DNA of 64,000 bases from Bacteroidales bacterium (GTDB lineage Bacteria > Bacteroidota > Bacteroidia > Bacteroidales > PXBB01). Within the stretch, counting starts at the first letter, position 1, and each line of letters opens with the position of its first letter. The notes beneath the pieces were generated by a model that did no database searches, was not told the origin of the DNA, and was given only the letters and a program-made list of their open reading frames with translations. A program made the position numbers and the translations under genes. The DNA is taken from assembly GCA_028698995.1 (NCBI GenBank), contig JAQVVM010000008.1, positions 23,384 through 87,383 of the forward strand, read 5' to 3'. Shown in pieces: positions 6,375 to 61,898 of this stretch.

Positions 6375-6385
6375 TATATGTAATC

Positions 6386-6943: not shown

Positions 6944-6973
6944 TATTAACTGTAATTAACAGCGAATAAGAAA

Positions 6974-7366: not shown

Positions 7367-7383
7367 TCTCTTAGGTTTATAGA

Positions 7384-7854: not shown

Positions 7855-7895
7855 ATCTTATAATAAATTAATTCTTTACCCTATTAAAAAACATT

Positions 7896-7922
7896 AAGAA
7901 TCCTGTATTACACAGGATTCTT
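7896..7922 (-). terminator. Intrinsic terminator of the PorV-like gene
   Basis: A perfect 11-bp inverted repeat (AAGAATCCTGT / ACAGGATTCTT, 5-base loop) between the PorV-like stop and the greA start. Read on the minus strand it is followed after a few bases by a six-T run. It would end transcription coming from the secretion locus. Confidence 0.7.
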
Positions 7923-7947
7923 AAAAAAATAAAAATAAAAATTTTGT

Positions 7948-9000
7948 TTACAAGTCCACTCTGACACCAAGGCTGTGAGATCCGAGGAAGGGATCAGAAG
8001 TCCTGTAGGAATAGTCAATTGAAAAGTTTGATGTGCTTTCTTTCTTTAAAGGAATCTGGATAGAAAGACCTGCTGTTGGTCCAGTGAGAGCGGTTGTTCG
8101 TTCGGCAATTTTTGTGATGCCGTTTTCATACATATAACCGGCTCTTAACATAAGATAGTTCTTTAAACCGTATTCAAGACCAAGCATAAATTGATCTTTA
8201 GTAAATGAATTTGATGTAAAATTACCTGCAATTGTTAATCGGTGAACATCAGGGACAATATGTATGTCATATGCACCGCCAATAGTCAGTAATGAAGGTA
8301 ATTCAAATTCTTCGGAGCGTTGAGCAACTGTCATTTGCTCTGGTGCACCAGGTACAAAACCCCTGAATGAAAGACCATCACCGGTAAATTGCATTCTTGG
8401 TCCAACATTTTTAAGAGAAATTCCAAATTTAATTTGTTCTTGCATACCTGTAACATATTGGATTCCTGCATCTAAAGCAACCCCCTGTGCTGAAGCATCT
8501 GGGATGGATTGAGAAATAATTTTCAGGTTGAATCCTCCATAAATGGCATTTGAAAATGCTTTGGCATAAGATATTGAAAGGTTCATATAACTGGGTGAAA
8601 ATCTTCCTATTTCTCCTTGCGCGTCGGGCTGTTCAACAGTTGTGATTGGGATATCACCAAAGGACATTGACATGACTCCAAGACCTAGGACTCCGGTTTC
8701 ACCAACTCTTTGAGCAATACCAAAGGAATTAATAAAGACACCTGAACCTTGTAACCAATTTGTTCTTGCAAGAATCAATTCGGTTTTTTTTGTAAAAGCC
8801 AATCCTGCAATATTCAGATATTGTGATTCCAAACCGCGTACATTGGCTACATTGGCACCTGCCCATCCTGAACTTCTTGCGAAGGGATTTATCAAAAGCT
8901 CTGAGGCACCGGCTTGACCTGATCTGTCAGGATTGCCACCAATACCGACACTTAGCTGAATTACTAATAAAAATGCTAAAACTAATTTTATATGTTTCAT
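7948..9000 (-). CDS. PorV/PorQ family outer-membrane protein
   Basis: A 350-residue beta-barrel protein. A signal peptide (about residues 1-19) precedes N-P-F-A-R-S-S-G-W-A-G-A-N-V-A and L-N-I-A-G-L-A-F, which match the start of PorV/PorQ-type proteins (UPF0164-like). Alternating hydrophobic strands follow up to a terminal S-L-G-V-R-V-D-L barrel strand. PorV and PorQ escort T9SS cargo at the outer membrane and hand it to the sortase PorU. This copy lies directly downstream of a giant secreted protein and a TonB receptor, so it is probably a dedicated paralogue rather than the central PorV (no porU next to it). Substrate specificity is inference. Confidence 0.8.
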   Translation of the reverse strand: MKHIKLVLAFLLVIQLSVGIGGNPDRSGQAGASELLINPFARSSGWAGANVANVRGLESQYLNIAGLAFTKKTELILARTNWLQGSGVFINSFGIAQRVGETGVLGLGVMSMSFGDIPITTVEQPDAQGEIGRFSPSYMNLSISYAKAFSNAIYGGFNLKIISQSIPDASAQGVALDAGIQYVTGMQEQIKFGISLKNVGPRMQFTGDGLSFRGFVPGAPEQMTVAQRSEEFELPSLLTIGGAYDIHIVPDVHRLTIAGNFTSNSFTKDQFMLGLEYGLKNYLMLRAGYMYENGITKIAERTTALTGPTAGLSIQIPLKKESTSNFSIDYSYRTSDPFLGSHSLGVRVDL

Positions 9001-9041
9001 GATTTTATATTTTTTCGTTTTTTTCTTTATTACATAAATGC

Positions 9042-13076: not shown

Positions 13077-13117
13077 TTTTATATCTTGTTTTAAATTATC
13101 TTATTTTTAATTTTATC

Positions 13118-35323: not shown

Positions 35324-36751
35324 TTAAAAGTATATATCCCTTTTGCCTTGTTTAATAAGTTCAATTTTTTCCTGAACGACACCTGTTTTATATTCTTTGG
35401 ACAGCTCATTGATTTTTTCCTGAATAAGTAAATATCCTTTGTTTTTTACTTCTTCAGATGCATAATCTTCGAGGTATTCAGCCAAGGTGAGAAGTGCATT
35501 TGGAGAGCAAAACCGTTTTATAAAACCCGGTACCGAAAATTCCATAAAGTGCTCTCCCGTTCGTCCTTTTCGATAACAGGCCGTACAGAAAGACGGAATG
35601 TATTTTTTATCAATCAGCTCTTCTATAATTTCGGCAAGGGAGCGTGTGTCGTTAATACGAAATTGTTCTTTTTCAATATCTTGTTGAATTTCATCCTTCT
35701 TACTGTAGGCACCCATTTCAATTTTTGTTCCCCCATCAATCTGTGAAACACCAAAACTCATGATTTCATCTCTGATATGGGCAGGTTCTCTGGCAGTTAA
35801 AATAAGTCCTGTGTAGGGTACAGCGAGACGTAGGATGGAGACTATTCTCAGAAAATCATTATCGCTGACAAGATGGGATTTGTCAATATTTAGTTGTGAT
35901 GCAAACTGAATTCTGGGGAATGAAATTGTGTGAGGACCAACGTTATAGACAGCTTCGAAATGATTTACATGGCGGAGCAGACCTAAAACTTCAAAACGCC
36001 AGTCGTAAAGGCCAAAAAGAGCTCCAATTCCAACATCATCAATGCCGGCTTCCTGAGCCCTGTCCAAAGATGTAAGCCGCCATTCGTAATTCTTTTTTAC
36101 ACCGCTCAGATGTACTTTATCATAAGTAGGAGCATGATAGGTTTCTTGAAAAACCTGATAAGTGCCAATCTTTGCATCTGCAATGGTTCTGAAACCATCA
36201 ATATCAAGTGGTGCTGCATTGATATTTACACGTCTTATTTCTCCATTTTTACTTTTTACACCATAAACAGTTTTTACCGATTCAGCAATAAACTCGGGTG
36301 TGTATTTGGGGTGTTCCCCAAAAACAAGAATTAATCTTTTATGTCCGTTGTCAACGAGTGCTTTGGCCTCAGTAATTAATTGTTCGTTGTCGAGGGTTAT
36401 TCTGTGAATGTCTTTATTCTTAGCCTTAAAGCCACAGTAGGCGCAATTGTTTATGCAAAGATTTCCTATGTATAGAGGAGCAAAAAGGACAATACGCTCA
36501 CCATAAACTTTTATTTTTAGTTGACGTGCACCATCTTTAATTTCATCAATCAGGTCGGGGTCAGTGGCATTAAGCAATATGGCCGTTTCTTCAAGGCTTA
36601 AACGTTTTTTTTCGAGTGATGCGCTTATTACTTCTCTTACCCTTTCTTTGCTTGATTTCACTGAATTGATATAATGCCATATCTCATCGGCATCAATAAA
36701 GGCTTGCATGCGCTTGTCGGGTAGTTTGTATTTTTCGGGTGTGTAAATCAT
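35324..36751 (-). CDS. hydG: [FeFe]-hydrogenase H-cluster maturase HydG
   Basis: A 475-residue radical SAM tyrosine lyase. The SAM cluster motif is C99-x3-C103-x2-C106 (C-I-N-N-C-A-Y-C), and the C-terminal cluster motif C-T-A-C followed 22 residues later by C (exactly C-x2-C-x22-C) is intact, which separates HydG from ThiH. HydG cleaves tyrosine to give the CO and CN- ligands of the H-cluster. hydE, hydF and a hydrogenase gene are not in the window and must be elsewhere if the enzyme is active. Confidence 0.96.
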   Translation of the reverse strand: MIYTPEKYKLPDKRMQAFIDADEIWHYINSVKSSKERVREVISASLEKKRLSLEETAILLNATDPDLIDEIKDGARQLKIKVYGERIVLFAPLYIGNLCINNCAYCGFKAKNKDIHRITLDNEQLITEAKALVDNGHKRLILVFGEHPKYTPEFIAESVKTVYGVKSKNGEIRRVNINAAPLDIDGFRTIADAKIGTYQVFQETYHAPTYDKVHLSGVKKNYEWRLTSLDRAQEAGIDDVGIGALFGLYDWRFEVLGLLRHVNHFEAVYNVGPHTISFPRIQFASQLNIDKSHLVSDNDFLRIVSILRLAVPYTGLILTAREPAHIRDEIMSFGVSQIDGGTKIEMGAYSKKDEIQQDIEKEQFRINDTRSLAEIIEELIDKKYIPSFCTACYRKGRTGEHFMEFSVPGFIKRFCSPNALLTLAEYLEDYASEEVKNKGYLLIQEKINELSKEYKTGVVQEKIELIKQGKRDIYF

Positions 36752-40171: not shown

Positions 40172-42847
40172 ATGGATACTTACGAGAATATTGAGTTAGA
40201 AAATACTTCGGAGTTTTTTCGTTCTAAAAGTTTGAAGACTTATATTTCACTTTTAAAATTACATGAGGATAAGCGTTTATACCGTACTGTTTTTGAAAAG
40301 AATGAACTTTCTTTTATTTATGTAGAATTCAGTTTTTACAATAAACTGTTTGATGATGAGGATTGGGATGCAACTGTACTTTTTGAGTTATATAAAATTA
40401 AAGGGAATAAAACAGAACTGTTGGATTCTACCGTATATGAAGAGGTTGTTTCAAAAGACAATAATATTGTAAGCCTTACTGATAATTGGGGTGATGAGAA
40501 AGGTCATAAATGGGAGCCCGGACATTATTTGTATAAAGTTTATGTAAACGATTGTTTCGCTGATAAATATGATTTTTATGTGCAGGATTTTGGTTTAATA
40601 ATAGACAGGTATAACCCGTATTTTAATATTTATTCATTTAAAGTTTTTGAGTCCACATCTGTTCCTGAACTTCCTGAAAACAGACAGTACATGAGTAGTT
40701 TTCGATCAGATATAACCCGTTTTGTATGGGCTGAACTGGAAATAGAAAACAGAAATCCAAAGAAAGAGTGGATGGGTGAGTTTTCTTTTAATTTTTATAA
40801 CGATGCCAAATTACTTATAGGTACTAAAAATATACTCATACCTGTTGTTACAAAAAATTTAAATAATTCGTTCAGAATTGAGGCGGGAATTGGTAATGAT
40901 AACACCATTACATGGTTTAAAGACAACTATACTGTTGAAGTATGGTTTTTAGGAAAAAAGGTTGCAGTAACAGCATTTCAGGTAGGAGATAGGGCTGTCA
41001 GCGGCTACGTAAAGTTCGAAGAGCCCATAAAACAAACCTTACCGGTAATTGATGTCAACAAAGAAAACGAAAACGCTGACGCTGAAAGAAAATTTAAACC
41101 CGATTATGAAATACTGAAAGATCTTGATGGAATGGTAGGTTTGGAGACCATCAGGAAAAAACTTAATGACTACATCTCTTATGTGAAGTACATGCAATTG
41201 ATGTCGAAAAAAGGCTTGAAAAGCGATGACAAGATAAATCTTCATGCTGTTTTTCTTGGAAACCCGGGAACAGGGAAAACCACCGTTGCCCGTACTCTGG
41301 GAAAGATATATAATTACCTGGGTTTGCTTCCTCGTGATACTGTTTTTGAAGCTGACAGAACAAGCCTGATTGGTCGTTATATTGGAGAAACAGCACCTAT
41401 GACTAAGGATGTCATTGAAAAAGCAAGGGGTGGAGTTCTCTTCATTGATGAAGCCTATGCCTTATCAAAACAAGGGGATGAAAAGGACTTTGGAAAGGAA
41501 TCTTTAGAAATTATACTCAAGGAGATGTCTGATGGCCCCGGTGATATTGCAGTGGTTGTTGCCGGTTACCCCAAGGAAATGTTGCAGTTTCTGGAAACAA
41601 ATCCCGGCCTAAGGTCCAGGTTTCAGAATATTTATGATTTTCCTGATTACCTTCCCGATGAGCTTATTCAAATCGCTCATATTAAAGCAGAAAAGAAAAA
41701 ACTTAGTATAGATTCTGAGGCTGAATATTATCTCAGTCAGATTTTAAATGAGGAGTTTCGGAACAGAAACAGAACATTTGGTAATGCCCGACTGGTAGGA
41801 TCAATAATTGAAGCAGCACAGCTTAATTTGGGTGTCAGGATTATGAGCCATAAAGAACCTGAAAAGCTTTCTGTAAAGGAAATTTCAACCTTGATGAAAC
41901 AAGATTTGATGGGCATTTCGCTTAAACCGGGTAAAAGAAAGGCCAGCTTACCCATTAATGAAGAATTACTTCAGTCGGCTTTACTTCAACTAAACTCATT
42001 ATCGGGTATTATTAAAGTTAAAGAAGAAGTCAATAATCTTGTGAAACTTGTCCGCTATCATAAAGAGATTAATAAGGATGTTCTTAATACTTTTAGTCTT
42101 CATAATGTGTTTCTTGGTAACCCCGGTACCGGAAAAACAACTGTTGCACGTCTGATGTCTCAGATTTTTAAAGCCTTAGGAATCCTGGAACGCGGACATT
42201 TGGTTGAGTGTAGCAGGGAAGATTTTGTTGCCGGATTTGAAGGACAAACAGCTCTTAAAACGAAGTCGCTTGTTGAAGATGCCATAGGAGGCGTATTATT
42301 TATTGATGAGGCTTATGCCTTAGACAACGTTCGTGGAAGTGTTGATTTTGGTAGAGAAGCCATTGATGTTATTATTAAAATGATGGAAGATGAGCGAGGT
42401 CAGTTTGCTGTTATCATGGCTGGATACACTAATGAAATGCAGAGTTTTTTGGACAGTAATCCGGGTTTAAGATCAAGAATTGACAATTTGATTATGTTTG
42501 AAGATTTTTCTTCTGACGAATTGCTTTATATAGCCCGATCAATGCTTAGAGAACAAGAAATGAAACCAACAGAAGAGGCACTGAAAGTGTTACGGAATTA
42601 TTTGGATATTCATTATGAAAATCGAAACCGATTTTTTGGGAATGCACGTTTTGTCAGAAAAGTTATTGAAAAAGCTGTAAAGAATCAGAATTTACGCATG
42701 GGTACTCTGAAAGCAGATGAAAGAACCCCCGATGAGATGTATACTCTTACTTATGAGGATGTGAAAGAATTTGCTTCGGGAATGGATGAATTACAAAATA
42801 AACCCAGGCTTGGATTTACATCGAATAAAAATGAAAAAAACAAATAA
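40172..42847 (+). CDS. Tandem AAA+ ATPase, CbbX/SpoVK type, with N-terminal beta domains
   Basis: An 891-residue protein. Residues 1 to about 300 are beta-rich with no recognised domain. Two AAA+ modules follow: Walker A G-N-P-G-T-G-K-T-T near residues 364 and 649, each with Walker B V-L-F-I-D-E-A-Y and an arginine-finger region N-P-G-L-R-S-R. Both modules match the CbbX/CfxQ/SpoVK clade, whose members remodel protein complexes (CbbX reactivates Rubisco; EccA acts in type VII secretion). Both ATPase sites look active. The target is unknown; the N-terminal part may bind it. The downstream IscX-like gene overlaps its 3' end. Confidence 0.9.
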   Translation: MDTYENIELENTSEFFRSKSLKTYISLLKLHEDKRLYRTVFEKNELSFIYVEFSFYNKLFDDEDWDATVLFELYKIKGNKTELLDSTVYEEVVSKDNNIVSLTDNWGDEKGHKWEPGHYLYKVYVNDCFADKYDFYVQDFGLIIDRYNPYFNIYSFKVFESTSVPELPENRQYMSSFRSDITRFVWAELEIENRNPKKEWMGEFSFNFYNDAKLLIGTKNILIPVVTKNLNNSFRIEAGIGNDNTITWFKDNYTVEVWFLGKKVAVTAFQVGDRAVSGYVKFEEPIKQTLPVIDVNKENENADAERKFKPDYEILKDLDGMVGLETIRKKLNDYISYVKYMQLMSKKGLKSDDKINLHAVFLGNPGTGKTTVARTLGKIYNYLGLLPRDTVFEADRTSLIGRYIGETAPMTKDVIEKARGGVLFIDEAYALSKQGDEKDFGKESLEIILKEMSDGPGDIAVVVAGYPKEMLQFLETNPGLRSRFQNIYDFPDYLPDELIQIAHIKAEKKKLSIDSEAEYYLSQILNEEFRNRNRTFGNARLVGSIIEAAQLNLGVRIMSHKEPEKLSVKEISTLMKQDLMGISLKPGKRKASLPINEELLQSALLQLNSLSGIIKVKEEVNNLVKLVRYHKEINKDVLNTFSLHNVFLGNPGTGKTTVARLMSQIFKALGILERGHLVECSREDFVAGFEGQTALKTKSLVEDAIGGVLFIDEAYALDNVRGSVDFGREAIDVIIKMMEDERGQFAVIMAGYTNEMQSFLDSNPGLRSRIDNLIMFEDFSSDELLYIARSMLREQEMKPTEEALKVLRNYLDIHYENRNRFFGNARFVRKVIEKAVKNQNLRMGTLKADERTPDEMYTLTYEDVKEFASGMDELQNKPRLGFTSNKNEKNK

Positions 42848-43302: not shown

Positions 43303-44640
43303 TTAATTTAGTTTTTGCAGAAAATCAGACATAATTCCTTCAGCATCCATTCTTTCAAGTAATGCTTGTTTCACATAGTCGCGTGTAAAATCGCAAATCA
43401 CATCAAGATAAGCACTGCTATAAGTGTCATTAGGGCACATACAGCCTCCCCCACAATGCCATTTGGCAAAACAATCAGAACATTTGCTGAAACTGTACAC
43501 ATTTTCATTGTGAATAGAAAGAAACTTTTTCTGGTTTAAAGAAATAGAAAGGTCGTTTTTAATTTTACCAAAAACCCTTCTTTCATAATGCGTTTCTTTA
43601 GGAGAGGAGCTGCAATAGCATATAGTCAAATCTCCTTGAGGAGTAACAGTAAATTTACTGGGGCAACCTCTGTCAATGATGTCGTTAAGATTTCGCGAGA
43701 GCCTGCTTTCAATTTTTTTACCATACTTTTCTCCAAGTTTACGAACTTTAGTAAAATAAACTCTGTAATCATTGTAAAACTTTTTGAAGGATTCTACAGT
43801 CTGAAATAATTTTGCATCCACCACCGGTTCAAATATCATATTGTCCACAAAGTTGAATCGGCTGATTATTTCCTGTAACATGTGCTCCTGAAAACATACA
43901 TTTGATGGTGTGATGGTGGCATTTACAGAGGGCTTAAGATTATTTGCTGCCAACATGTCCAATGTATTGCAAACCTTTTCGTATTGACCCCTTTCTTTTT
44001 CCTGAAATTCATTTAATATATCGAATGAAATATCAGGCAATACATTGTATTTCTTTAAGACACTTAAAATTTCTTCATTCATAATGGTGCCATTAGTAAT
44101 GAGTGTCATGCCCAGCGTAAACCCCCCTTTTGTGGCAAGTTCGGCAGCATATTCAATACCGTATTTTACAATATCCCACGATAGTAAAGGTTCTCCTCCT
44201 CCGATAAATGAGATGGACAGAAAACGATTTTCAAGTCGTGCAGGGTTGATAAAATATTCTAAGGCTGTTTTCAGTTTTGTCTTGTTGAGTACCATATTTG
44301 TTCTTCCCTGAGAGGAATAACAGTAGGTGCACGATAAATTGCAAATATGATTGGGAAGGATAGACATTTTTTGTAAATCATCCGTTCCTCTGATTTTTCT
44401 GATTTTTTTATTTATAGGGACATGATTGATAAGTTGTTCAATAGCTTCTTTAATTTGTGGTATGGCTTTTTCGGGTTCAGAAATAGCTGATTCCAAGTCC
44501 CTTACACTGTCGGGTGTAGCAATAAGCATGACATGTGCCAAGGGAGAATACACCAGGTAAAGAGCATTTGGTTGAAGGTTGTAATACGAACCAACTGGAA
44601 TGGGGAATATATTTGACTGTATCAGTGATTTAAAAGTCAT
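43303..44640 (-). CDS. Radical SAM/SPASM peptide-maturase-like enzyme 5
   Basis: A 445-residue enzyme, last of five tandem paralogues. The N-terminal region (I-F-P-I-P-V-G ... Y-L-V-Y-S-P-L-A) looks like a peptide-binding RRE/PqqD-like module. The SAM cluster motif is C100-x3-C104-x2-C107-Y, with the glycine-rich I-G-G-G-E-P-L. The SPASM domain has C-x9-G-x4-C (C-P-S-K-F-T-V-T-P-Q-G-D-L-T-I-C) and C-S-D-C-F-A-K-W-H-C-G-G-G-C, so two auxiliary 4Fe-4S clusters are expected. Such enzymes install thioether, C-C or epimer changes on ribosomal peptides. It follows the previous gene by 9 bases. Confidence 0.88.
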   Translation of the reverse strand: MTFKSLIQSNIFPIPVGSYYNLQPNALYLVYSPLAHVMLIATPDSVRDLESAISEPEKAIPQIKEAIEQLINHVPINKKIRKIRGTDDLQKMSILPNHICNLSCTYCYSSQGRTNMVLNKTKLKTALEYFINPARLENRFLSISFIGGGEPLLSWDIVKYGIEYAAELATKGGFTLGMTLITNGTIMNEEILSVLKKYNVLPDISFDILNEFQEKERGQYEKVCNTLDMLAANNLKPSVNATITPSNVCFQEHMLQEIISRFNFVDNMIFEPVVDAKLFQTVESFKKFYNDYRVYFTKVRKLGEKYGKKIESRLSRNLNDIIDRGCPSKFTVTPQGDLTICYCSSSPKETHYERRVFGKIKNDLSISLNQKKFLSIHNENVYSFSKCSDCFAKWHCGGGCMCPNDTYSSAYLDVICDFTRDYVKQALLERMDAEGIMSDFLQKLN

Positions 44641-44649
44641 AGGTCATTA

Positions 44650-46557
44650 TTAATCTGGTTTAAAATTTTTAAAACAATAGTAGTCCTTGATCAATTTCTC
44701 TTCATTTGTACTGCTTTCATTCGATAGTATTATAAATGCATTAAGTTCAAGGACATCAATAATCTTCAATTTGCAATTTTTTAGCATGGAGTTGAAAATT
44801 TTTTTATATAATTTTAATTTGCGCGAAATATCTTTTTTGTCCTCCAAAGGCTCATAGCTTCCGCTTATAACCATGGCTGCATTTTGATTCAAAGGAAGAA
44901 ATTCCCGTATAAAAATTATTAGGCTCGTTACAGAAAGTTTCTTCATATTTACAAATACACCTTCTTTACTAGTCAAACGCTCAAAACAATTTCTTTCGTT
45001 TTCCCATGCAGCCGGAAAAATATCAGTAATTTGCATGTATACGCCAAATTCATAAAAATTTAGTAAGTAATTTATTGGTTCCATGGTATTTAAACTCCGT
45101 GCTTTGATTTCAAACTGAATTTTCTTTTTAAATATGCCTTCGGAGAAATTTTCTTCTTTATGAAAACAATATTCATAAAAGCTATACATCGAATCTAAAT
45201 TATCTTTCATTTCGTCAATTATCTGCTCTAAGCTTTTTCTAAAGTTTTGTATATAAAACTTGTCCAAGCGAAAAAGCAGTGTTTTTGCCATGAATTCTCT
45301 AGTGAATGTGCATATTTCATTTATCCTGTCATCGTCATAAGTATAGGCTGTAGCTAAACATCCACCACCACAGTGCCATTTTGAAAAGCAGTTTAAACAT
45401 TTTTCATCGTGATGCATGTCATGAGCTATAAGATTGTTAAAGGATTCCTCATCAAAATCCATCTTTTGATTGTAAACATGCCCATAAACAAACTCCTTGT
45501 AGTGCTTCTCTTGTGGTGATGAAATTCTGTGACAGATGCTGATGCTGCCTTCAGGGGTGAGACACATTTCTCCTCCGCAGAAATGCTCCATGATATAATT
45601 CATGTTGCTGTAAGTAGGGCAATATAAATCCAATCCAAGAGCTTCTGCCTTTTTTAACGCATTAAAGAAAGAGTCGGAAAATTGATTAAAGAATAACTTA
45701 AGTTCTTCTGAATTTGAAAACATTGAGCTGTCTTCTACTGGTTGCAGTTTCAAGCTTTTAACTGCAGGGAAACGGGTACTCATTTCTACAACCATTTCAT
45801 CGAGTAGATTCACGTTATTTGGAGTGATGATAGATTTAAAAGTAACACTTATACCGCTCTCACAAAGTGTATCAATAGTCGTGCATACATTTTTATACTG
45901 CTCTCTTTGTGTATTTTGGACATGAGGTAAAATTTCAAATGACACACTTGCTTTTACATCATTCTCTTGTAATATTTTAATTATTTCTTTGTTGATTATT
46001 GAACCATTTGTTGTTAGGCCTATCCCTAAAGTAAAATTGTATTTATTTGCTCTTTGACGGGCATAAGAAATTACATGTTTACATATATCCCAAGCCATAA
46101 AAGGCTCACCTCCCCCTAAAACAGAAAGAAAAATTTTGCGACCTGCCAATCTCTTTGGATCTATAAAAAAGTCAATAGTAGCTTTTGCATCCTCTTTTTT
46201 TAAAATTTTTGTAGAACGCCCTTCTTGTGCATAGCAGTAACTGCATGAGAAATTGCAATCATATGTGGGAAGTATGGTCAGCTTAGTTAGTTCGTTTAGT
46301 TTTCTTGAAGGACAAACATAACCATTAATTCTCTCATACTCAAGAAGGTCCTTAAGCGCTTCGGATAAATATTCAGGGATAGGCAAAGCATTAGTTAAAT
46401 TGCTTTCCATAAGCCTTAATTCATGTGGTCTGACAAGCAATGTTTTATCAGCCAAGGGAGAATAAAGAAGGTATATCTCTTCGGAATTAGCTTTGAAATA
46501 TTTGCCAACCGGCATATTGAAAATATTTGCTTTATGAAGTCCGGGTGTTGGTATCAT
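44650..46557 (-). CDS. Radical SAM/SPASM peptide-maturase-like enzyme 4, with C-terminal extension
   Basis: A 635-residue member of the tandem set. The first 425 residues match the other four: I-F-N-M-P-V-G, Y-L-L-Y-S-P-L-A, C101-x3-C105-x2-C108, L-G-G-G-E-P-F, C-x9-G-x4-C and C-L-N-C-F-S-K-W-H-C-G-G-G-C. About 200 further residues, absent from its paralogues, have no recognised domain; they are partly helical and could bind the peptide, an exporter or another maturase. The start overlaps the upstream stop by 4 bases (ATGA), pointing to translational coupling. Confidence 0.88.
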   Translation of the reverse strand: MIPTPGLHKANIFNMPVGKYFKANSEEIYLLYSPLADKTLLVRPHELRLMESNLTNALPIPEYLSEALKDLLEYERINGYVCPSRKLNELTKLTILPTYDCNFSCSYCYAQEGRSTKILKKEDAKATIDFFIDPKRLAGRKIFLSVLGGGEPFMAWDICKHVISYARQRANKYNFTLGIGLTTNGSIINKEIIKILQENDVKASVSFEILPHVQNTQREQYKNVCTTIDTLCESGISVTFKSIITPNNVNLLDEMVVEMSTRFPAVKSLKLQPVEDSSMFSNSEELKLFFNQFSDSFFNALKKAEALGLDLYCPTYSNMNYIMEHFCGGEMCLTPEGSISICHRISSPQEKHYKEFVYGHVYNQKMDFDEESFNNLIAHDMHHDEKCLNCFSKWHCGGGCLATAYTYDDDRINEICTFTREFMAKTLLFRLDKFYIQNFRKSLEQIIDEMKDNLDSMYSFYEYCFHKEENFSEGIFKKKIQFEIKARSLNTMEPINYLLNFYEFGVYMQITDIFPAAWENERNCFERLTSKEGVFVNMKKLSVTSLIIFIREFLPLNQNAAMVISGSYEPLEDKKDISRKLKLYKKIFNSMLKNCKLKIIDVLELNAFIILSNESSTNEEKLIKDYYCFKNFKPD

Positions 46558-47915
46558 ACAGTTCTTTTAATCATGTCTGCCAAGGATGTATAATGGTCAT
46601 TATAATACTCATACTCGAGTCGCTCTAACAGTAAGCGTTTAAAAAAGTTTTTATTAAAATGGCAAACAGCAAAATGCATGTCTTTACTGAAATGATTGCG
46701 GTGAGCAAGGCATCCACCACCACAATGCCATTTGGCGAAACAATTTTCACATTCTGAATAACTTTTGACATTAATGTTTATTAAAGTGTCAAACTTTTGA
46801 AGGTTATAAACAATTTTTCCGTTTTTGGTATCACCATAATTGCACAATTCAAAATAATCTTCCACGGGCGAAGAAACTTTATGACAAGCACTGATGGTTC
46901 CTTCAGGGGTCAGACACAGAAACCCGGGACAGTATCTATTGTTAATGCCTTCAAACTTATCACGGATGGTACAATTAAGCCCTCTATGGTCAGCCTTAGC
47001 TATCTTTCGAGCCACAAAATACTGATTGGTAAAATCGTCATAAAATTTTTTAAGATCTTCAATTGAATTAAAGGCATTTCTGTCCATTACAGGGTCGAAA
47101 TTGATACTGTTTATTTTAGGAAAACGGGAAATTAATGTCTCAACCATTTCTTTCTGAAGAAAAACATTATTCTTGGTAATAGTAGCATTGACAGAAGGTA
47201 TCAAGCCTTTTTCAATCATGTGAGAAATATTTTTTGTAACGGTTTCAAAATGCCCCCTTTGTAAATTTTGAATGTCTTCAAGAATCTCATAAGATACGCA
47301 GACAAAAACTTTATACTTTAAAAATGTTTCGATCATATCATCTGTGATAATACCACCGTTTGTAATAATTTTAAAGTAAATTTTTAATCCATATTCTTTT
47401 GTCAGCGTGTGGGCGTAAGTCAGGCCGTATTTAACCAGAGGCCAAGAAAGTAAAGGTTCGCCTCCACCTGCAAAAAAAATTCCGAGTTCACCTTTTCCCT
47501 GCTTTTCTGGAGTAATAAAACCATCAAGCATTGTGGTGAGGCCTTTTTTTGTAAGTTCTTTGCCGGAGCGCCCTTTAGCTGAATAACAGTATGAACAAGA
47601 GAAATTACATTTATAATTTGGTAAAATGGAAATTTTTGTTGAATCAGATGGCCATCTCAGGGGTTTAATTAAATCCTCCAAGGGTTCATGATCCAGCAAT
47701 GTATCCAGTGTTTGTAAACTTTCTTCATCAATGAGGCTCTTATCTTTGTTTTTAAGGTAGGATTCCATTTTGATAATATTTTCCGGCAAAGAAAGGGTAA
47801 CTCCTTTACTTAATGGGGCATAAATCAAAAAAATCGCTTCATCAGGTTTCCCGAAGTTACTCCCGCAAGGAATTGGATAAATGTTGTGATTATTTAAATA
47901 AGGTGTATAAAGCAT
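46554..47915 (-). CDS. Radical SAM/SPASM peptide-maturase-like enzyme 3
   Basis: A 453-residue paralogue: N-terminal I-Y-P-I-P-C-G and F-L-I-Y-A-P-L-S, SAM cluster C103-x3-C107-x2-C110-Y-S, F-A-G-G-G-E-P-L, SPASM C-P-G-F-L-C-L-T-P-E-G-T-I-S-A-C and C-E-N-C-F-A-K-W-H-C-G-G-G-C. All expected cluster ligands are present. Its start directly follows the stop of enzyme 2 with no spacing. An extra Cys occurs within the first SPASM segment, as also in enzyme 4. Confidence 0.88.
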   Translation of the reverse strand: MLYTPYLNNHNIYPIPCGSNFGKPDEAIFLIYAPLSKGVTLSLPENIIKMESYLKNKDKSLIDEESLQTLDTLLDHEPLEDLIKPLRWPSDSTKISILPNYKCNFSCSYCYSAKGRSGKELTKKGLTTMLDGFITPEKQGKGELGIFFAGGGEPLLSWPLVKYGLTYAHTLTKEYGLKIYFKIITNGGIITDDMIETFLKYKVFVCVSYEILEDIQNLQRGHFETVTKNISHMIEKGLIPSVNATITKNNVFLQKEMVETLISRFPKINSINFDPVMDRNAFNSIEDLKKFYDDFTNQYFVARKIAKADHRGLNCTIRDKFEGINNRYCPGFLCLTPEGTISACHKVSSPVEDYFELCNYGDTKNGKIVYNLQKFDTLININVKSYSECENCFAKWHCGGGCLAHRNHFSKDMHFAVCHFNKNFFKRLLLERLEYEYYNDHYTSLADMIKRTV

Positions 47916-49232
47916 CTAAAATTTACTTAATTGGGTTTCTTCATATTTTACAATAAGAGCATTTAAAGTAAAATCTCTTATAAAATTACATAAAATTTCT
48001 TTTGTTTTCTGATTGTAACTACGATTCTGGAAATAACAGCCACCCCCACAATGCCATTTTGCAAAACACTTTTTACAAATGTCGTTGTTGATATCATTGC
48101 TTATCATATTTTGAAATTTTTCCAAGTCAAACTCCATCAATCCGTTATCATTTACTTTTCCATAAATAAAATCTTTATATAAAGGTTCCAATGGGGATGA
48201 AATAAAGAAGCATATACTTATAGTACCCTCAGGAGTAAGATCAAATCCACCCGGACAAGCTCTGTCTCTTAAGAGTTCTGTGTTTTTAAGCTTGATGCAA
48301 CTTACATCCACACCATGTTCTTTACCTGTTCTATAGGCATCAAAAAAGTTTTGTGTATAGGATTTAAAGAATTTTTCAAATTCAACAGGATTATCATAAA
48401 GAGAAGCATCAACAACAGCATCAAAACTGAGTCTTTTAATTTTAGGGAAACGTTTGGCCATAAAAATTACCATTTCTTTCTGTAGATTGACATTGGCTGG
48501 CGTAATCACAGTATTAATCGAAGGGATAATATCAGATTCAAGCAATTTGTCGAGTGTTCTGCAAACAGAGTTAAAGTCTTTACGTTGCAATTCCTGAATA
48601 TGTTCTAATATATCAAAAGAAATATTGGCTTTTATTTTATACTTTATTATAGAGTCGATAATCTCATCATTTATTATTGACCCGTTTGACGCAAATGAAA
48701 AATGTAACGTAAAGCCATAATGAGAGGCTCGATCTTGAGCATAAGAAATTCCTTTTATTACCAGGGGCCACATTAAAAAAGGTTCTCCTCCGCCACCAAA
48801 TGAAATATAAAGATCTCTTTTTTTGAGCCTTTTGGGATCAATGAAAAAATCCAGAACTTGAACCATCTGCTTTTCGTCCAATTCTTTATTTGCGTGGCCA
48901 TTGGCAGCATAGCAATAGGAGCATGAAAAATTACATCTTGCTGTAGGCAATATCGTAAGAGCACATACATCATAAGGGCTTTTAACGTAATTTACAGGTT
49001 TTGAATTTTCATTATCCAATAACAGTTTAAGAACCTCTTTTGTTTCTGAATCACTTTCGGATTTTATATCTAAACATGTTTTTTCGAGCTTAACTATTTC
49101 ATCCTTAGTAAGTTGCATGAGGATGCCTGAAATAGGAGCGTAGAGCCAGAAAGAAGCACAGTTAAAAGCATCTTTTTCAAGGGGAGGGATGATGTATATC
49201 TCGTTTTTATTTAGAAAAGGTACTGCAAACAT
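47916..49232 (-). CDS. Radical SAM/SPASM peptide-maturase-like enzyme 2
   Basis: A 438-residue paralogue: SAM cluster C100-x3-C104-x2-C107-Y-A, F-G-G-G-G-E-P-F, SPASM C-P-G-G-F-D-L-T-P-E-G-T-I-S-I-C and C-K-K-C-F-A-K-W-H-C-G-G-G-C. The N-terminal module is the most diverged of the five (I-Y-I-I-P-P-L-E in place of P-I-P-V-G), which may mean a different peptide register or partner. It lies 11 bases after enzyme 1. Confidence 0.88.
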   Translation of the reverse strand: MFAVPFLNKNEIYIIPPLEKDAFNCASFWLYAPISGILMQLTKDEIVKLEKTCLDIKSESDSETKEVLKLLLDNENSKPVNYVKSPYDVCALTILPTARCNFSCSYCYAANGHANKELDEKQMVQVLDFFIDPKRLKKRDLYISFGGGGEPFLMWPLVIKGISYAQDRASHYGFTLHFSFASNGSIINDEIIDSIIKYKIKANISFDILEHIQELQRKDFNSVCRTLDKLLESDIIPSINTVITPANVNLQKEMVIFMAKRFPKIKRLSFDAVVDASLYDNPVEFEKFFKSYTQNFFDAYRTGKEHGVDVSCIKLKNTELLRDRACPGGFDLTPEGTISICFFISSPLEPLYKDFIYGKVNDNGLMEFDLEKFQNMISNDINNDICKKCFAKWHCGGGCYFQNRSYNQKTKEILCNFIRDFTLNALIVKYEETQLSKF

Positions 49233-49243
49233 GAAATTAGAAT

Positions 49244-50611
49244 TTATCCGTTTCTTTCATTCTCGGCAATTATTTCTTGCAAAGAGGTTCCATAGTTATT
49301 TCTATATTCATTGTCAAGTTTTTCAATCACCATACGTTTTATAAATTCTCTGGTGTGTTCACAAATAATTTCCAGGATTTCAGGTTTATATACATACTTG
49401 TGAGCCATACAGCCACCCCCACAATGCCATTTTGCAAAACAAGTCAGGCATTTCTCATAGCTGTGAACATTATCGTTCGAAAGTTTTTTAAACTTTTGAT
49501 AGTCAATTTCGATTTGTCCAAATGAATTTACCTTTCCGTATATACTGTCAGCATAACCTGGGTCAAGAGGTGAGGTAATACGTGTGCACATACTTATTTC
49601 GCCCTCAGGTGTGATGGCAAATTCACCGGGGCAAAAACGTTCAATGAGTAAATTGAAATTGCGTGATGCTGAACATTCAACATTTTTCCCATGAGAACGA
49701 CCCAGTTTCCAAGCATCAAAAAAATTATTTATATATTCTTTAAAAAAGTGACGGATATCCTCCGTTGATTCAAAAGATTCTGAGTCTGTTACTGCCTCCA
49801 TCATAATATCTTTAACTTGTGGGAAACGGGTAATGACTTCTTGCACCATTTCTGTTTGAAGCAAAACATTGTCATTTGTTATAGTTGACCTTAGCTTAGG
49901 TGACATGCCGGCTTTAATCAATTTGTCAATATTTTTTACAACATCGTCATAATGACTTCTTTGCAAATTCTGAATGTCTTTTAGTATTTCAAAAGAAAAA
50001 CTGGTTGTAACTTTATATTCTTTTAATACATCTATCATGCTCTCAGTAAGTATAGAGCCGTTAGTTACCAAGGAAAAGTCAGGAGTAAAGCCATATTTGT
50101 TACAAAGCTTTCCGGCATAGCTGAATGTGAATTCTACTTTATCCCATGACAGCATAGGCTCACCACCTCCGAGTATGGCAATAAATAAAACCTTGCTTTT
50201 TACTCTGTTGGGGTCAATAAAATAATCAAGAGTTTTTTTAATTACATCAATGTTTAAAACCTTATTAGTTCTTCCCTGAGCTGAGTAACAGTAACTGCAT
50301 TTGAAATTACAGGTGTTATTTGGAAGAATAGCCAGTCGTGAAAATGAATCCGGTGATTCTAAAATCATTGCTTTTTTTTCGGGATCATTTTCCAATAGCT
50401 GCTCCATAAGCTCTTTAAGGGCTTCATCTGAATTTTTATTGCCATTTGTTAAATAATCTTCTATTTGAATCAGATACTCAGGAGAAACAATAATGGCATT
50501 ATCGGAAAGTGGCGCATAAACAAGATAATATTTTTCGGCTGCGTGACCGAAATTGGTTCCAACGGGTATAGGGAAAATGTTAGACTTCTGCATATAGGGA
50601 AATCTGCTCAT
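49244..50611 (-). CDS. Radical SAM/SPASM peptide-maturase-like enzyme 1
   Basis: A 455-residue enzyme, first of the five and nearest the peptide gene. N-terminal I-F-P-I-P-V-G-T-N-F-G and Y-L-V-Y-A-P-L-S (probable leader-binding module), SAM cluster C101-x3-C105-x2-C108-Y-S-A-Q-G-R, L-G-G-G-E-P-M, SPASM C-P-G-E-F-A-I-T-P-E-G-E-I-S-M-C and C-L-T-C-F-A-K-W-H-C-G-G-G-C, then a last Cys in I-I-C-E-H-T. It begins 96 bases after the peptide stop, beyond a terminator-like hairpin, so it is probably expressed by read-through from the peptide promoter. Confidence 0.9.
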   Translation of the reverse strand: MSRFPYMQKSNIFPIPVGTNFGHAAEKYYLVYAPLSDNAIIVSPEYLIQIEDYLTNGNKNSDEALKELMEQLLENDPEKKAMILESPDSFSRLAILPNNTCNFKCSYCYSAQGRTNKVLNIDVIKKTLDYFIDPNRVKSKVLFIAILGGGEPMLSWDKVEFTFSYAGKLCNKYGFTPDFSLVTNGSILTESMIDVLKEYKVTTSFSFEILKDIQNLQRSHYDDVVKNIDKLIKAGMSPKLRSTITNDNVLLQTEMVQEVITRFPQVKDIMMEAVTDSESFESTEDIRHFFKEYINNFFDAWKLGRSHGKNVECSASRNFNLLIERFCPGEFAITPEGEISMCTRITSPLDPGYADSIYGKVNSFGQIEIDYQKFKKLSNDNVHSYEKCLTCFAKWHCGGGCMAHKYVYKPEILEIICEHTREFIKRMVIEKLDNEYRNNYGTSLQEIIAENERNG

Positions 50612-50634
50612 ATTTTTTTTGGATTAGAAGTCTT

Positions 50635-50688
50635 AAAAAAGGCACTGTCAAAGCTGATAAACAATGTTTCAATCAGTTGGACAGTACC
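50635..50688 (-). terminator. Terminator/attenuator between the peptide gene and the maturases
   Basis: On the minus strand GGTACTGTC pairs with GACAGTGCC (one G-T pair), with an inner CTGAT/ATCAG stem, followed at once by TTTTTT. It lies between the peptide stop (50708) and enzyme 1 start (50611). Such an element would make the short peptide transcript abundant and let a minor fraction read into the enzymes. Confidence 0.75.
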
Positions 50689-50707
50689 TCATTACAGAAA
50701 CAAAAAA

Positions 50708-50797
50708 TTAATTATTGCACTGGCAGCCACCACAATGGTCGCAGCAACCATGAGCATTTTTCTTTGTCTCTTTTACTTTTACTACTTTTGTAATCAT
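50708..50797 (-). CDS. Cys-rich 29-residue peptide, candidate RiPP precursor
   Basis: A short gene encoding 29 residues. The N-terminal half is Lys/Val-rich without cysteine (K4, K7, K9, K12, K13), like a leader; the C-terminal half is G-C-C-D-H-C-G-G-C-Q-C-N-N with five cysteines (18, 19, 22, 25, 27). There is no in-frame upstream start before a stop. A promoter-like pair lies 70 bases upstream and a terminator-like hairpin downstream, then five radical SAM/SPASM genes on the same strand. It has no signal peptide and no obvious Gly-Gly cleavage site before the core, though G-G occurs inside the core. I do not recognise it as a named precursor family. A metal-binding peptide is the main alternative. 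Confidence 0.75.
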   Translation of the reverse strand: MITKVVKVKETKKNAHGCCDHCGGCQCNN

Positions 50798-50867
50798 AGC
50801 GCTTTGATTTTTAAAGTGTTAAAAAAATCCCCTTTTAAAATGGATTAAAAAAGGAAAATGATTGATG

Positions 50868-50897
50868 CAAATATAAAAAAAAAATAAAAAATGACAA
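50868..50897 (-). promoter_or_regulatory. Bacteroidetes-type promoter of the Cys-rich peptide operon
   Basis: On the minus strand TTG (50897-50895) and TATATTTG (50875-50868) are 19 bases apart, matching the -33/-7 consensus (TTG, N19, TAnnTTTG) of the Bacteroidetes primary sigma factor. The expected leader to the peptide ATG is about 60-65 bases. Confidence 0.6.
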
Positions 50898-54393: not shown

Positions 54394-57300
54394 TTAAAAG
54401 ACAACTATTTTTTTAACAATATTGTAGGATGTACTTTTCAAATTCAGGAAATATATGCCGGAAGCAAACTCTGAAGTGTTGAAAGATTTTTGAGTAGTGA
54501 CGGATGTCGGTTCAAATTTCTCGGAATAAGCCAATGCTCCCTCTGCACTTATTATACTGATTTCAAATTGCTCAGAAACAATGTTTATTTCAATAGAAAA
54601 AATATCTTCGGCAGGATTTGGATATACAGAAAGTTCCGGAATATGAGTTAATTCTTCATCTGATGTAGAGATAATACAAGTAAATTGTGCTTTCCATCCT
54701 TCCAATTCAACATAATCATCCGAAGCAAATTTAAAAGTCAGAGCACCTGTTGGATGTGTTGATGTAATAACCGGTGGTAGGTCTTCACCACAATACGAAC
54801 CAATCAATTGCGAAGCAGTATTGGGCCCATTATAGATAAAAAGTTCATCCCAACATCCTCCTGCCCATTCATTGGCTTCGACATCAAATTCAGAAAATTG
54901 CACCCTCAGGTGGGCTTCGTTAAGTGGAACTGATGAGTTGGGGAAAAAGGTCATTGTTTTATTTTCACTGATGCTATACTCACTGTCAGGGCCATTAGAA
55001 TCATAAAAATAAGCATCACAGATATATACAGTGGTGTCCTTCATCAGGAATGTTGGTAATAACCCAATGTAAAACGTGAAATTTTTAGTAATGCTGTATG
55101 CACCTGCGCTCAGTGTATAAACAATAGTTGCTTCTGTTTCATTTGGAGTTTGTGGATCTGCAGTGATTGTGAAAAGGGCATTATCTGTAGTTCCGGCTGG
55201 AAAGCTGGCAAAGGAATGAGTGCCATTGTTGATTGTCAGATACGGACTTGCTGTTGAGATGGATGCTGTAATGTTGTTGATACCTGCATTTCCCAAATTT
55301 GATGTTGAAATGCTTACGATGGAATTTTCACCAGGGTCAATTATATTATTTGAGTTCCCGCTTGCATCGTCAAAAGCTATAGCCCCTGCTATAAAATCAG
55401 GTGCATTAGCTGAAAGGATAAATGACGAATGCCATATATTGGTATCATTGTCGCGCACAACAAGACTCATCAAATTTGAATAATTGTTGGGAATATCATC
55501 AGAAATTGTAATCTCAAAGGCATTATTTACCATTAGTTGTTGGGCAGGAATAAAATCTCCCCAAAGATTCTGATTATTGTCCACTGTTATGTAGGGGCTG
55601 TTGGTTGATAAAACTGCCCAAACACTGTCTGCATTGTTGATACCGACATTTTTTAAAGACACATTCAAAAATAATGTTTCATCAAAATCAGCAAGGTTGT
55701 TATTATTCCCTGTTGAATCATTTATGGTGTGACTGTTATAAATAACATAAGGACCTGATGGGGGAATGATATATACTTCACCAAGATAAGGAATGTGGTT
55801 GTAAGCTGTAACAGCAACTGTTATGGTATCAATTGTTGATAAAGGAGGAAAATTTAGAAGGACATTACCTCCCAAAATATGGCCTGTAGCAATAATCTGA
55901 TTGTTTATGGTAAGACAAACAAAAGCACCTTCGGTTGGGCAAAGCACCATAAGGTTATCACTTCCTAAAAATTCAACGCTGTTGTGTGTGACAGTTAATG
56001 GATCAGGGTTATCTGTTCTTACCATTAAAGAAGGGTCTCCGAAAATAGTCCAAGTATCCGTCATTTCAGTACCACCCTGTCCAAATTCATCATTCATTTT
56101 CATACAACCGTTCATTGACAAACCGCCAAATGTTCTTTTGATGTTGTTTGAAAAGCTTTCCGTAAGGAGATTGTTCATTTCAAGTTGCGCTGCCATAGGA
56201 GGGTTCCAACTTTGATTTACAGTTGACATAAGTGCAGCAACTGCTCCTGTTGGTTGATTGTTATTTGTAGCTCTTAACCAAGCTTCCGCAAAACAAGTGG
56301 CCCCCACAAAATTACCGTTTACACAAGCGACCGACCAAATAAAAGGTAATTTGTCTGTATTAACCAAACTGTTGACTTCTGTATTGCTAAATCCAGATGT
56401 CCCCCAGCCTTGATCCCAGCCATGCCCGCAATAGTTTATTAGTCCAAGACCTTCATTCACCTCATCGACTATAAGAGAAGGAGTAGGGTCACCGGCAGCA
56501 TCAAGACCTCCTTGTGAACCTTCATACATCTCGCTGATGTTTAAATAGTTATAATTTAAAAGTGTATCGCGTATTAATCGTATATGTTCATAGTCTAATA
56601 AATTGTTATAACCAGGCCCTTCCTGTGATCCAATTCCACAGGCTTTATTAAATATATTGGTTTGTGAAGTTGGAGAAAGTTCATAGTCGATGCTTCTTTG
56701 TACTTGAGTTTGAACCTCAGCAATATTTTCTGCAGAAAATCTGCCGATAAAAACTTCAGAATAAGAGTCGTTACCGCTCAAATACCCGTAAGCATTGTCA
56801 GAATGATAACTGTTTATAGTCATTGTAGAAACCTGAGCACCATCTCCAACAAGAAGTACAAAAGCAAGGTCTGATGTGTCATAAACAGCCTGAATATAAT
56901 TTTTTATGGATGTAGGGTTGTTGCCTATTGAAGCAACATCAACAATAGATGTAGGTATTCCAATGGTGTTTTTCCAGTTTACAAAGGGCATCATAGATGG
57001 TATGAACGAACCATGGCTAATAATTAACATACTGCCATGTTCTTCAATGGGTGTGTATTTTGTGTTACCTATGGCTGTATAATTAAGAAAACGATTGCTG
57101 TAAATTTGGTCAAATTCATTCACAACACCTTGCTCCGATTTTGTTCTGGTAATGATATTTTGTCCTTGAGAACCTTGTTTGGGTACTAATTTAATTTCCA
57201 GTTTATGATAAACTCTTAAAATTTTTTGAACAGGATTGTATTGAAATGGAAAAATATCGACAGCTTGTCCTCTAAAATCTCTGATAATGTAAGGCGTGTT

Positions 57301-57756
57301 TAGCGCTGTCAACTTTCCTGGAAAAAACTGGTTGTTTTCATAGACATCTCCAAACTCATAAGGCATATCATCAGGGTTAATATTTCGGTATAGATTTCCT
57401 TTTGAAGGTAATATTTCAATATTTGAATAATCAGTATATTCTGAAGCAGTAACCTGTGCTTCCATATTCATAATGTCGGGAATAATTAATGAAAATGAAT
57501 ACTTGGGAAGATCGGGGAAGCCTTTTTTAAGCATTTTTGAGCTGTTTTCAGCAGAAATCCTTAAAGCAGAACCCCTTTCTGTTATAACTGTTTCTGTGTT
57601 AAATCCCTTCAATGAGAAAGAAATAACATTGGTATTGTTTTCAAAACTTTTAAGCTCTAAAGCCTGACTGTCTGATGTTTTTACAAAGCTTATCTGTCCA
57701 CATACAATGGCATGAGAGAACATCATTACCATTGAAATAATTATTAATTTGCGCAT
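54394..57756 (-). CDS. Gingipain-type C25 peptidase with CUB domain, T9SS-exported
   Basis: A 1120-residue secreted protease. Signal peptide (1-20), gingipain-like propeptide (about 21-220), C25 catalytic domain with H445 in Y-C-G-H-G-W and C478 in S-V-A-C-V-N-G-N-F; the 33-residue spacing equals that of H211/C244 in RgpB. An Ig-like domain and repeated beta domains follow, then a CUB-like domain (about 905-1035) and a T9SS sorting domain (V-Y-P-N-P-A-E-D-I-F). The catalytic pair is intact, so an active cysteine endopeptidase is likely; specificity for Arg or Lys cannot be read. It is not obviously the sortase PorU, which lacks this C-terminal sorting domain. Confidence 0.9.
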   Translation of the reverse strand: MRKLIIISMVMMFSHAIVCGQISFVKTSDSQALELKSFENNTNVISFSLKGFNTETVITERGSALRISAENSSKMLKKGFPDLPKYSFSLIIPDIMNMEAQVTASEYTDYSNIEILPSKGNLYRNINPDDMPYEFGDVYENNQFFPGKLTALNTPYIIRDFRGQAVDIFPFQYNPVQKILRVYHKLEIKLVPKQGSQGQNIITRTKSEQGVVNEFDQIYSNRFLNYTAIGNTKYTPIEEHGSMLIISHGSFIPSMMPFVNWKNTIGIPTSIVDVASIGNNPTSIKNYIQAVYDTSDLAFVLLVGDGAQVSTMTINSYHSDNAYGYLSGNDSYSEVFIGRFSAENIAEVQTQVQRSIDYELSPTSQTNIFNKACGIGSQEGPGYNNLLDYEHIRLIRDTLLNYNYLNISEMYEGSQGGLDAAGDPTPSLIVDEVNEGLGLINYCGHGWDQGWGTSGFSNTEVNSLVNTDKLPFIWSVACVNGNFVGATCFAEAWLRATNNNQPTGAVAALMSTVNQSWNPPMAAQLEMNNLLTESFSNNIKRTFGGLSMNGCMKMNDEFGQGGTEMTDTWTIFGDPSLMVRTDNPDPLTVTHNSVEFLGSDNLMVLCPTEGAFVCLTINNQIIATGHILGGNVLLNFPPLSTIDTITVAVTAYNHIPYLGEVYIIPPSGPYVIYNSHTINDSTGNNNNLADFDETLFLNVSLKNVGINNADSVWAVLSTNSPYITVDNNQNLWGDFIPAQQLMVNNAFEITISDDIPNNYSNLMSLVVRDNDTNIWHSSFILSANAPDFIAGAIAFDDASGNSNNIIDPGENSIVSISTSNLGNAGINNITASISTASPYLTINNGTHSFASFPAGTTDNALFTITADPQTPNETEATIVYTLSAGAYSITKNFTFYIGLLPTFLMKDTTVYICDAYFYDSNGPDSEYSISENKTMTFFPNSSVPLNEAHLRVQFSEFDVEANEWAGGCWDELFIYNGPNTASQLIGSYCGEDLPPVITSTHPTGALTFKFASDDYVELEGWKAQFTCIISTSDEELTHIPELSVYPNPAEDIFSIEINIVSEQFEISIISAEGALAYSEKFEPTSVTTQKSFNTSEFASGIYFLNLKSTSYNIVKKIVVF

Positions 57757-57773
57757 AGAATTGGTTTAAAATA

Positions 57774-61844: not shown

Positions 61845-61868
61845 AAAGGTATTTATTAGTATAAAAAA

Positions 61869-61898
61869 GAAAAACCATTGTATTTTCAATGGTTTTTC
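61869..61898. terminator. Bidirectional-looking terminator between two large T9SS genes
   Basis: A perfect 12-bp inverted repeat (GAAAAACCATTG / CAATGGTTTTTC, 6-base loop) between the stop of the partial gene at 61910 and the start of the C25 gene. The stem ends in T-rich arms on both strands. It would end transcription from the upstream gene and so separate the two units. Confidence 0.75.

Follow-up and report, generated by a model that had tools for sequence, protein, structure and literature searches.

A conserved cysteine-rich peptide gene and five ancient radical SAM/SPASM paralogs form a probable new RiPP operon in a Bacteroidales genome

The window analysed here is a 64,000-nucleotide stretch of contig JAQVVM010000008.1 from a Bacteroidales bacterium (assembly GCA_028698995.1). 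It carries on its minus strand a gene for a 29-residue cysteine-rich peptide, and 3′ of this gene stand a hairpin and five head-to-tail genes for radical S-adenosylmethionine (SAM)/SPASM enzymes (e1 to e5 in transcription order, 43303–50611; Table 1). We consider it probable that this operon represents a new family of ribosomally synthesized and post-translationally modified peptides (RiPPs), in which five non-redundant maturases resembling CteB and PapB act on a single precursor and divide thioether chemistry among themselves. Peptide and enzyme set recur together in distantly related bacteria of gut and lake origin. The RiPP status of the system, first proposed in an earlier note made from the DNA letters, is well supported by inference.

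The precursor peptide and its five maturases

The peptide can be divided into a presumed leader, MITKVVKVKETKKNAH, and a presumed core, GCCDHCGGCQCNN, with five cysteines in its 29 residues. A scan of ~85,000 species genomes, for which the enzyme alignment served as query, supplied related clusters, and close homologs of the peptide were found at the same place. At the Bacteroides locus L033, MLTKVFKVKDTNTNAYGCCDQCGGCQCNN closely precedes the e1 ortholog, from which a single unrelated frame separates it; at the Lentimicrobium locus L034, MITVVFKVKTVKKGVYACCDHCGGCKCNN lies just upstream of the e1 ortholog; and at the Prevotellaceae locus L039, MTMKVVKVKNAKSNSAGCCDCFGGGCRCND lies just ahead of the first enzymes. 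The L034 peptide recurs in two genomes of the same family, G302 (L129) and G1130, and in L034 and G302 its gene stands inside the cluster, after two enzymes. More diverged peptides carrying CC[DE] were MLTEIMNIAEPSTQDSSCCECFGMCSCDCK in L037 (Lentisphaeria), MLTPIVTTGSAQVEGGCCDCFYMRCACDYQ in L035 (Akkermansia), where a second, distinct Cys-rich frame stands in tandem, and MLTDVYTVNEKNCSNATAGCCDVFGYGCSCACNNS in L179.

Comparison of the window, L033 and L034 gave a ratio of nonsynonymous to synonymous change (pN/pS) of 0.25 over the full length of the peptide. The presumed leader stood at 0.47 and the core at 0.07, or at 0.12 once all Cys codons had been excluded from the core. When an equal number of changes was placed at random, at most 1 of 10,000 simulations contained so few amino-acid changes. 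The N-terminus, MITKVxKVK, is conserved. Because close homologs occupy the same position in other genomes and the sequence is under purifying selection, the small open reading frame (ORF) is not a chance one. The earlier note had held that the peptide would be in doubt if it were missing beside homologous enzyme clusters, if its Ka/Ks were near 1, or if another conserved precursor were found elsewhere. Instead, the frame is conserved in Bacteroides, in three Lentimicrobiaceae genomes and in one Prevotellaceae genome, the pooled ratio lies far below 1, and no other precursor replaces it, all of which supports the proposal of a new Cys-rich RiPP operon.

The precursor matched no NCBIfam family and gave only a chance-level match in Pfam, and its core motifs were not found in the literature searched. 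Several apparent homologs were rejected. A search of 60 relatives with the single peptide sequence returned only chance-level matches outside its own genome, and the best-looking of these (L012) falls within an apparent respiratory complex I gene region. A match of the peptide profile in G259 (L130) has no enzyme of the maturase family beside it within 3 kb, and four short or Cys-repeat frames from a motif scan of viral contigs were taken as chance. Plasmids held one distant radical SAM protein and nothing else.

The frames, sizes and spacing that the earlier note gave for the small gene and the five enzymes agree with the ORF coordinates. The junctions between the enzyme genes are, in order, +11, 0, −4 and +9 bases, and because the genes abut or slightly overlap they are probably translationally coupled. 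The window enzymes are 39–41% identical to e1, and alignment confirmed in each of the five the radical SAM motif and full set of SPASM ligands that had been read from the sequence: CX3CX2C, C-x9-G-x4-C, CX2CX5CX3C and one last Cys are invariant. All ten of these cysteines (three of CX3CX2C, seven of SPASM) are also invariant across a 25-sequence alignment that includes 20 relatives. The Pfam SPASM model missed the window enzymes in a whole-genome search; the NCBIfam SPASM model TIGR04085 was above cut-off for e1, e2 and e3.

Maximum-likelihood trees of the enzymes, one of 33 and a smaller one of 18, both placed each window enzyme with a partner from L033 and from L034. Supports for the five groups in the 18-enzyme tree were 99/99 (e1), 100/97 (e2), 93/93 (e3), 88/86 (e4) and 100/99 (e5), and the e4 group reached 100/99 in the 33-enzyme tree. 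Here e2 groups with L033_e2 and L034_e4, e4 with L033_e4 and L034_e6, and e5 with L033_e5 and L034_e2; the e3 group consists of L033_e3, L034_e1 and L034_e5, and its orthology is only moderately supported, whereas the other four groups have strong support. Simple identities agree with the tree for e1, e2, e4 and e5. The order e1–e5 is identical in the window and L033, and that of L034 is e3, e5, peptide, e1, e2, e3-like, e4. Since the window enzymes fall into five separate ortholog groups, they did not arise by recent expansion. The tandem enzymes described in the earlier note are therefore all present, and they are better described as five ancient, separately conserved paralogs than as recent copies. 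By these comparisons the five distinct enzymes may have been kept as a set since before the families split, or may have moved together by horizontal transfer. The multi-enzyme set was found in 2 of 393 genomes of the order, the window's own counted, in no other genome of a 395-genome sample from the phylum, and in three of the 19 genomes searched from the L034 family; one of these 19, G1127, is apparently L034's own genome. This patchy occurrence suggests horizontal transfer.

Table 1. Features of the peptide–maturase operon within the window
Feature	Coordinates	Strand	Basis
−7 box, Bacteroidetes type, TATATTTGC	50867..50875	−	pattern match; promoter function inferred
Precursor gene, 29 aa, MITKVVKVKETKKNAHGCCDHCGGCQCNN	50708..50797	−	ORF, homologs, pN/pS
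Hairpin + T run between precursor and e1 (putative read-through terminator or mRNA stabiliser)	50638..50690	−	fold
Maturase e1, radical SAM/SPASM, 455 aa	49244..50611	−	ORF, NCBIfam search, alignment, AF2 model
Maturase e2, radical SAM/SPASM, 438 aa	47916..49232	−	ORF, NCBIfam search, alignment, tree
Maturase e3, radical SAM/SPASM, 453 aa	46554..47915	−	ORF, NCBIfam search, alignment, tree
Maturase e4, radical SAM/SPASM, 635 aa, C-terminal extension	44650..46557	−	ORF, NCBIfam search, alignment, tree
e4 C-terminal domain, ~195 aa	44653..45240	−	comparison with relatives, fold
Maturase e5, radical SAM/SPASM, 445 aa	43303..44640	−	ORF, NCBIfam search, alignment, tree

Fold of e1 and known systems compared

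An AlphaFold (AF2) model of e1 (predicted local distance difference test score, pLDDT, 92.8) best matched CteB, with Z 29.7 over 384 residues, such that residues 9–433 of the model aligned with 1–448 of the chain and the RiPP recognition element (RRE) was included. CteB was also the closest solved structure by profile (2e-40). Apart from one further full-length match, which is weighed below, the remaining structure matches covered the catalytic core only. Residues 1–85 of e1 form, by fold, an RRE-like module, with strands and helices predicted in the order b-b-b-a-a in residues 13–73, and an alignable N-terminal module, the least conserved part of the protein, is present in every window enzyme. 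The earlier note had guessed that this module might bind a leader, and by fold it is RRE-like, the e1 model aligning to CteB from residue 9. In CteB itself, the leader is bound by the N-terminal RRE, and the substrate faces an open site on an auxiliary cluster (PMC8326336).

The likeness to the SCIFF/CteB system (PDB 5wgg, 5why; TIGR03974) comprises the combination of RRE, radical SAM and SPASM parts seen in the full-length match of e1, a Cys-rich precursor adjoining the enzyme, and the lack of a clear antimicrobial role. One maturase serves each precursor there, whereas five do here, and the SCIFF precursor, in which CteB makes a gamma-thioether to Thr, has six Cys in ~45 residues against five in 29. 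With TIGR03974 the window enzymes score 78–105 bits against a cut-off of 425. Freyrasin (PapA/PapB; NF047865) resembles the window system in its clustered cysteines, which act there as sulfur donors; a single PapB makes six Cys-Asp thioether links in CX3D motifs (PMC9413430), which PapA has and the window precursor lacks. Thuricin CD (TrnC/TrnD) and ruminococcin C (RumMC1/RumMC2) likewise have more than one radical SAM/SPASM maturase in a Cys-rich RiPP cluster, but they use two enzymes and yield secreted antibiotics (PMC12093266, PMC8188230), whereas the window has five ancient paralogs for one 29-residue peptide and no exporter.

None of the five enzymes could be assigned to an NCBIfam equivalog family. 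The comparison with RiPP-maturase profiles that the earlier note had suggested (CXXX-repeat, CcpM and sactipeptide types) gave nothing above cut-off, PapB being the closest: CXXX-repeat (TIGR04115) and CcpM (TIGR04068) reached at most 44 and 65 bits among the matches listed, against cut-offs of 350 and 500, and the sactisynthase models among the NCBIfam matches fell far under theirs. In the literature searched for clusters with several radical SAM enzymes, the nearest parallels were two-enzyme systems. By fold and arrangement the system is ranthipeptide-like, but its sequences do not qualify it for any of the named ranthipeptide families, and no counterpart of the five-paralog arrangement was found in the databases or literature searched. 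Sequence is compatible with sactipeptide-, ranthipeptide- or other modification and does not distinguish among them; the closest enzymes are ranthipeptide maturases.

Proposed pathway and rival explanations

In the pathway that we propose, an abundant short transcript comprising the promoter, the 29-residue precursor and the hairpin would supply the substrate, and read-through past the hairpin would give the five maturases. Through an RRE-like N-terminal domain of its own, each of these would bind the N-terminal segment of the precursor, MITKVVKVK; it would cleave SAM reductively at the radical cluster and take a hydrogen atom from one particular residue of the core. The sulfur of a cysteine would be joined to that carbon by the thioether (ranthipeptide) chemistry of CteB and PapB, and the SPASM clusters would guide the cysteine. 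Work would be shared among the five enzymes, each making a different link, most simply one per cysteine, so that a compact C-terminal peptide with several cross-links would result. The extra domain of e4 would be a separate tailoring or binding partner, and relatives would use an M42 aminopeptidase to trim the leader up to the first cross-link. Because no exporter or immunity gene was found, an intracellular role is probable, the product serving as a metal-binding or redox cofactor-like peptide. Of this account, the analysis shows directly the order of the genes, the intact cluster ligands, the conservation of the peptide and of the enzyme set, and the e1 fold, whereas the transcript levels, the peptide's role as substrate, leader binding, chemistry, division of labour and function are inferred.

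A more specific proposal can be put forward only tentatively, and we would not wager on it: one dedicated radical SAM enzyme for each cysteine, such that five position-specific maturases reading the same leader would turn a ~12-residue core into a densely thioether-bridged intracellular metal-binding or redox cofactor. If so, the product would be a cofactor derived from a RiPP and assembled by paralogous radical enzymes that act in order and without redundancy. Enzymes and cysteines number five and five in the window, L033 and L039. Several observations weigh against the preferred pathway. The counts of enzymes and cysteines are six and five in L034, four and six in L037, and two and six in L179, and since they do not strictly track each other, one enzyme per cysteine can be offered only as a hypothesis; one PapB, acting alone, makes six thioethers, and the number of links therefore need not equal the number of enzymes. 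The best NCBIfam family for all five enzymes is PapB (NF047865), at only 107–116 bits against a cut-off of 340, and the window precursor has no CX3D/E motifs, none of its Cys being followed at the fourth position by Asp or Glu. The genome of the window holds no M42 protein above the family cut-off. Finally, the next full-length match of the e1 model, N-terminal module included, is TigE (PDB 8vpo; Z 27.3), which is 16% identical to e1 and differs in precursor type and chemistry. TigE is a cyclopropylglycine RiPP maturase and makes no thioethers.

That the fold of e1 is nearly as near TigE as CteB raises the alternative, which we judge unlikely but deserving of weight, of a RiPP with mainly non-thioether chemistry (C-C links, cyclopropanes, epimers or other), in which the cysteines of CCDHCGGCQC would stay free and bind a metal or an Fe-S cluster. 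Their CX2CX2CXC spacing resembles metal-binding motifs, all five lie close together and persist in the closest relatives, and the enzymes fall into no curated thioether-maturase family. However, the nearest enzymes both by profile (PapB; CteB at 2e-40) and by fold are thioether maturases, and all precursors found in the family are rich in Cys although their cores otherwise vary, a pattern that a donor role for Cys would predict. The abutting or overlapping genes, with their probable translational coupling, would also suit a single complex of the TrnC/TrnD type, in which one or two subunits are catalytic and the others position the substrate. Across phyla, none of the five enzymes has lost a cluster ligand, an argument for catalysis by each of them; TrnD too is an active radical SAM enzyme, so this retention is not conclusive, and we regard such a complex as improbable.

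We give very little credence to a third possibility, that the small frame is a cysteine-sensing leader peptide in which stalling at Cys codons controls the hairpin and the Fe-S enzyme operon, while the enzymes modify something else. A Cys-rich frame of 29 codons followed by a hairpin and T run ahead of the operon, with a hairpin in all loci folded, has the layout of such an attenuator, but the strong protein-level selection on the non-Cys core codons and the conserved N-terminus both speak for the peptide itself. Moreover, its gene lies within the cluster, after two enzymes, in L034 and G302, and distinct Cys-rich frames stand in tandem at two loci (two in L035, at least four in L160).

Among the ranthipeptide and sactipeptide systems compared, one or two maturases account for every link, whereas here five are kept for one tiny peptide, in bacteria as distant as Bacteroides and Lentimicrobium; the arrangement is unusual because it contrasts both with freyrasin (one PapB, six links) and with thuricin CD (two enzymes, one complex). 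It provides a natural test of how radical SAM/SPASM enzymes pick one cysteine or carbon among neighbours, could furnish peptide-stapling tools that are specific for position, and may point the way to a cofactor-like peptide of anaerobes.

Expression signals, accessory genes and neighbouring loci

The window hairpin has a dG of −25.3 kcal/mol (z −4.9), and none of 200 shuffles was equally stable. A hairpin stands directly 3′ of the precursor in all seven loci folded (the window, L033, L034, L037, L035, L039 and L179), and the seven sequences are unrelated; in L035 the stem is clear, yet the whole stretch folds no better than shuffles. Precursor-only transcripts may end or be protected at the hairpin, with the enzymes made by read-through. 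The putative −7 box TATATTTGC lies ~70 nt upstream of the peptide start, its motif is not enriched across the window, and TTGTCA at 50892–50897 (minus strand) is a possible upstream element; a related box, GATATTTGC, precedes the L034 peptide. When the region was scanned for sigma-70 promoters and for terminators, nothing rose above shuffles, the terminator scan missing the hairpin because its loop is long and interrupted, and neither the hairpin nor the leader region had an Rfam match over threshold.

The C-terminal domain of e4, for which Pfam has no family, has its own gene immediately 3′ of the e4 ortholog in L033, L034, G302 and G1130, and is fused to the fourth enzyme of L037. It is weakly GNAT-like, with a best Foldseek E of 0.07 to SpeG and a VIA Z of at most 7.4 to the RimL and p300 folds, which is below the tool's reliable level.

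Beside the window cluster there is no gene for an M42 aminopeptidase, a short-chain dehydrogenase, a B12-binding radical SAM enzyme or a formyltransferase-like protein. The earlier note's remark that no protease adjoins the cluster thus holds for the window and not for the family, since M42-type aminopeptidases (29–42% mutual identity) lie in or beside the clusters of L033, L039, L036, L179 and L160; their presence makes trimming of the leader from the N-terminus likely in these relatives. A short-chain dehydrogenase gene is added in L033 (17061–17912), L034 (16200–16928), G302 and G1130; it ends the cluster in Bacteroides and Lentimicrobium and its protein may have a tailoring role or may itself be the client of a cofactor-like product. 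L039 (15899–18863), L179 (10728–13624) and L035 (12535–14645) make up a second cluster subtype, with a formyltransferase-like protein and a radical SAM enzyme that binds B12, assigned in L035 and L179 by similarity to L039 or by gene order; these genes hint at C-methylation and formylation of the peptide. In L033 (7105–8340), a ThiF-family protein and its neighbours end shortly before the Bacteroides precursor.

Other loci with enzymes of this kind carry different candidate precursors. On contig 23 of G183 (L160, 4543–7627), at least four tandem Cys-rich precursor-like frames of 37–41 residues adjoin a single enzyme of the maturase family and an M42-like aminopeptidase. L040 (Oscillospiraceae; 9679–11251) pairs one enzyme with a 48-residue precursor containing eight Cys, SECCGYEESCCSDSCDGSCPSDSCTCEE. 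L036 (Muribaculaceae; 5836–14534) has a candidate 39-residue precursor, MKTLNFQVVAAAQNVNSMFEYSNFSESGPCDMCWGDLSL, two SPASM-type enzymes, three genes of the MiaB/RimO methylthiotransferase type (one above the RimO cut-off), and an S9 and an M42 peptidase; to judge from these genes, its product is possibly a methylthiolated RiPP. On contig 30 of the source genome (G000; L131, 4488–20000), seven SPASM matches lie inside 15 kb; this tandem set was rejected as a like system, the region being an apparent polysaccharide/ABC export locus with no Cys-rich precursor.

AAA proteins of the CbxX/CfqX type, ~35% identical, are encoded near the cluster both in the window (40172–42847) and in L039 (366–3758); none was seen near the L033 and L034 clusters, so this is possibly coincidence. 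Elsewhere in the window, HydG, the [FeFe] hydrogenase H-cluster maturase (514 bits), is encoded at 35324–36751 beside glycosyltransferase genes, with no other hydrogenase maturase identified adjoining it, and 54394–61889 holds a pair of adjoining gingipain-type C25 peptidases with type IX secretion tails.

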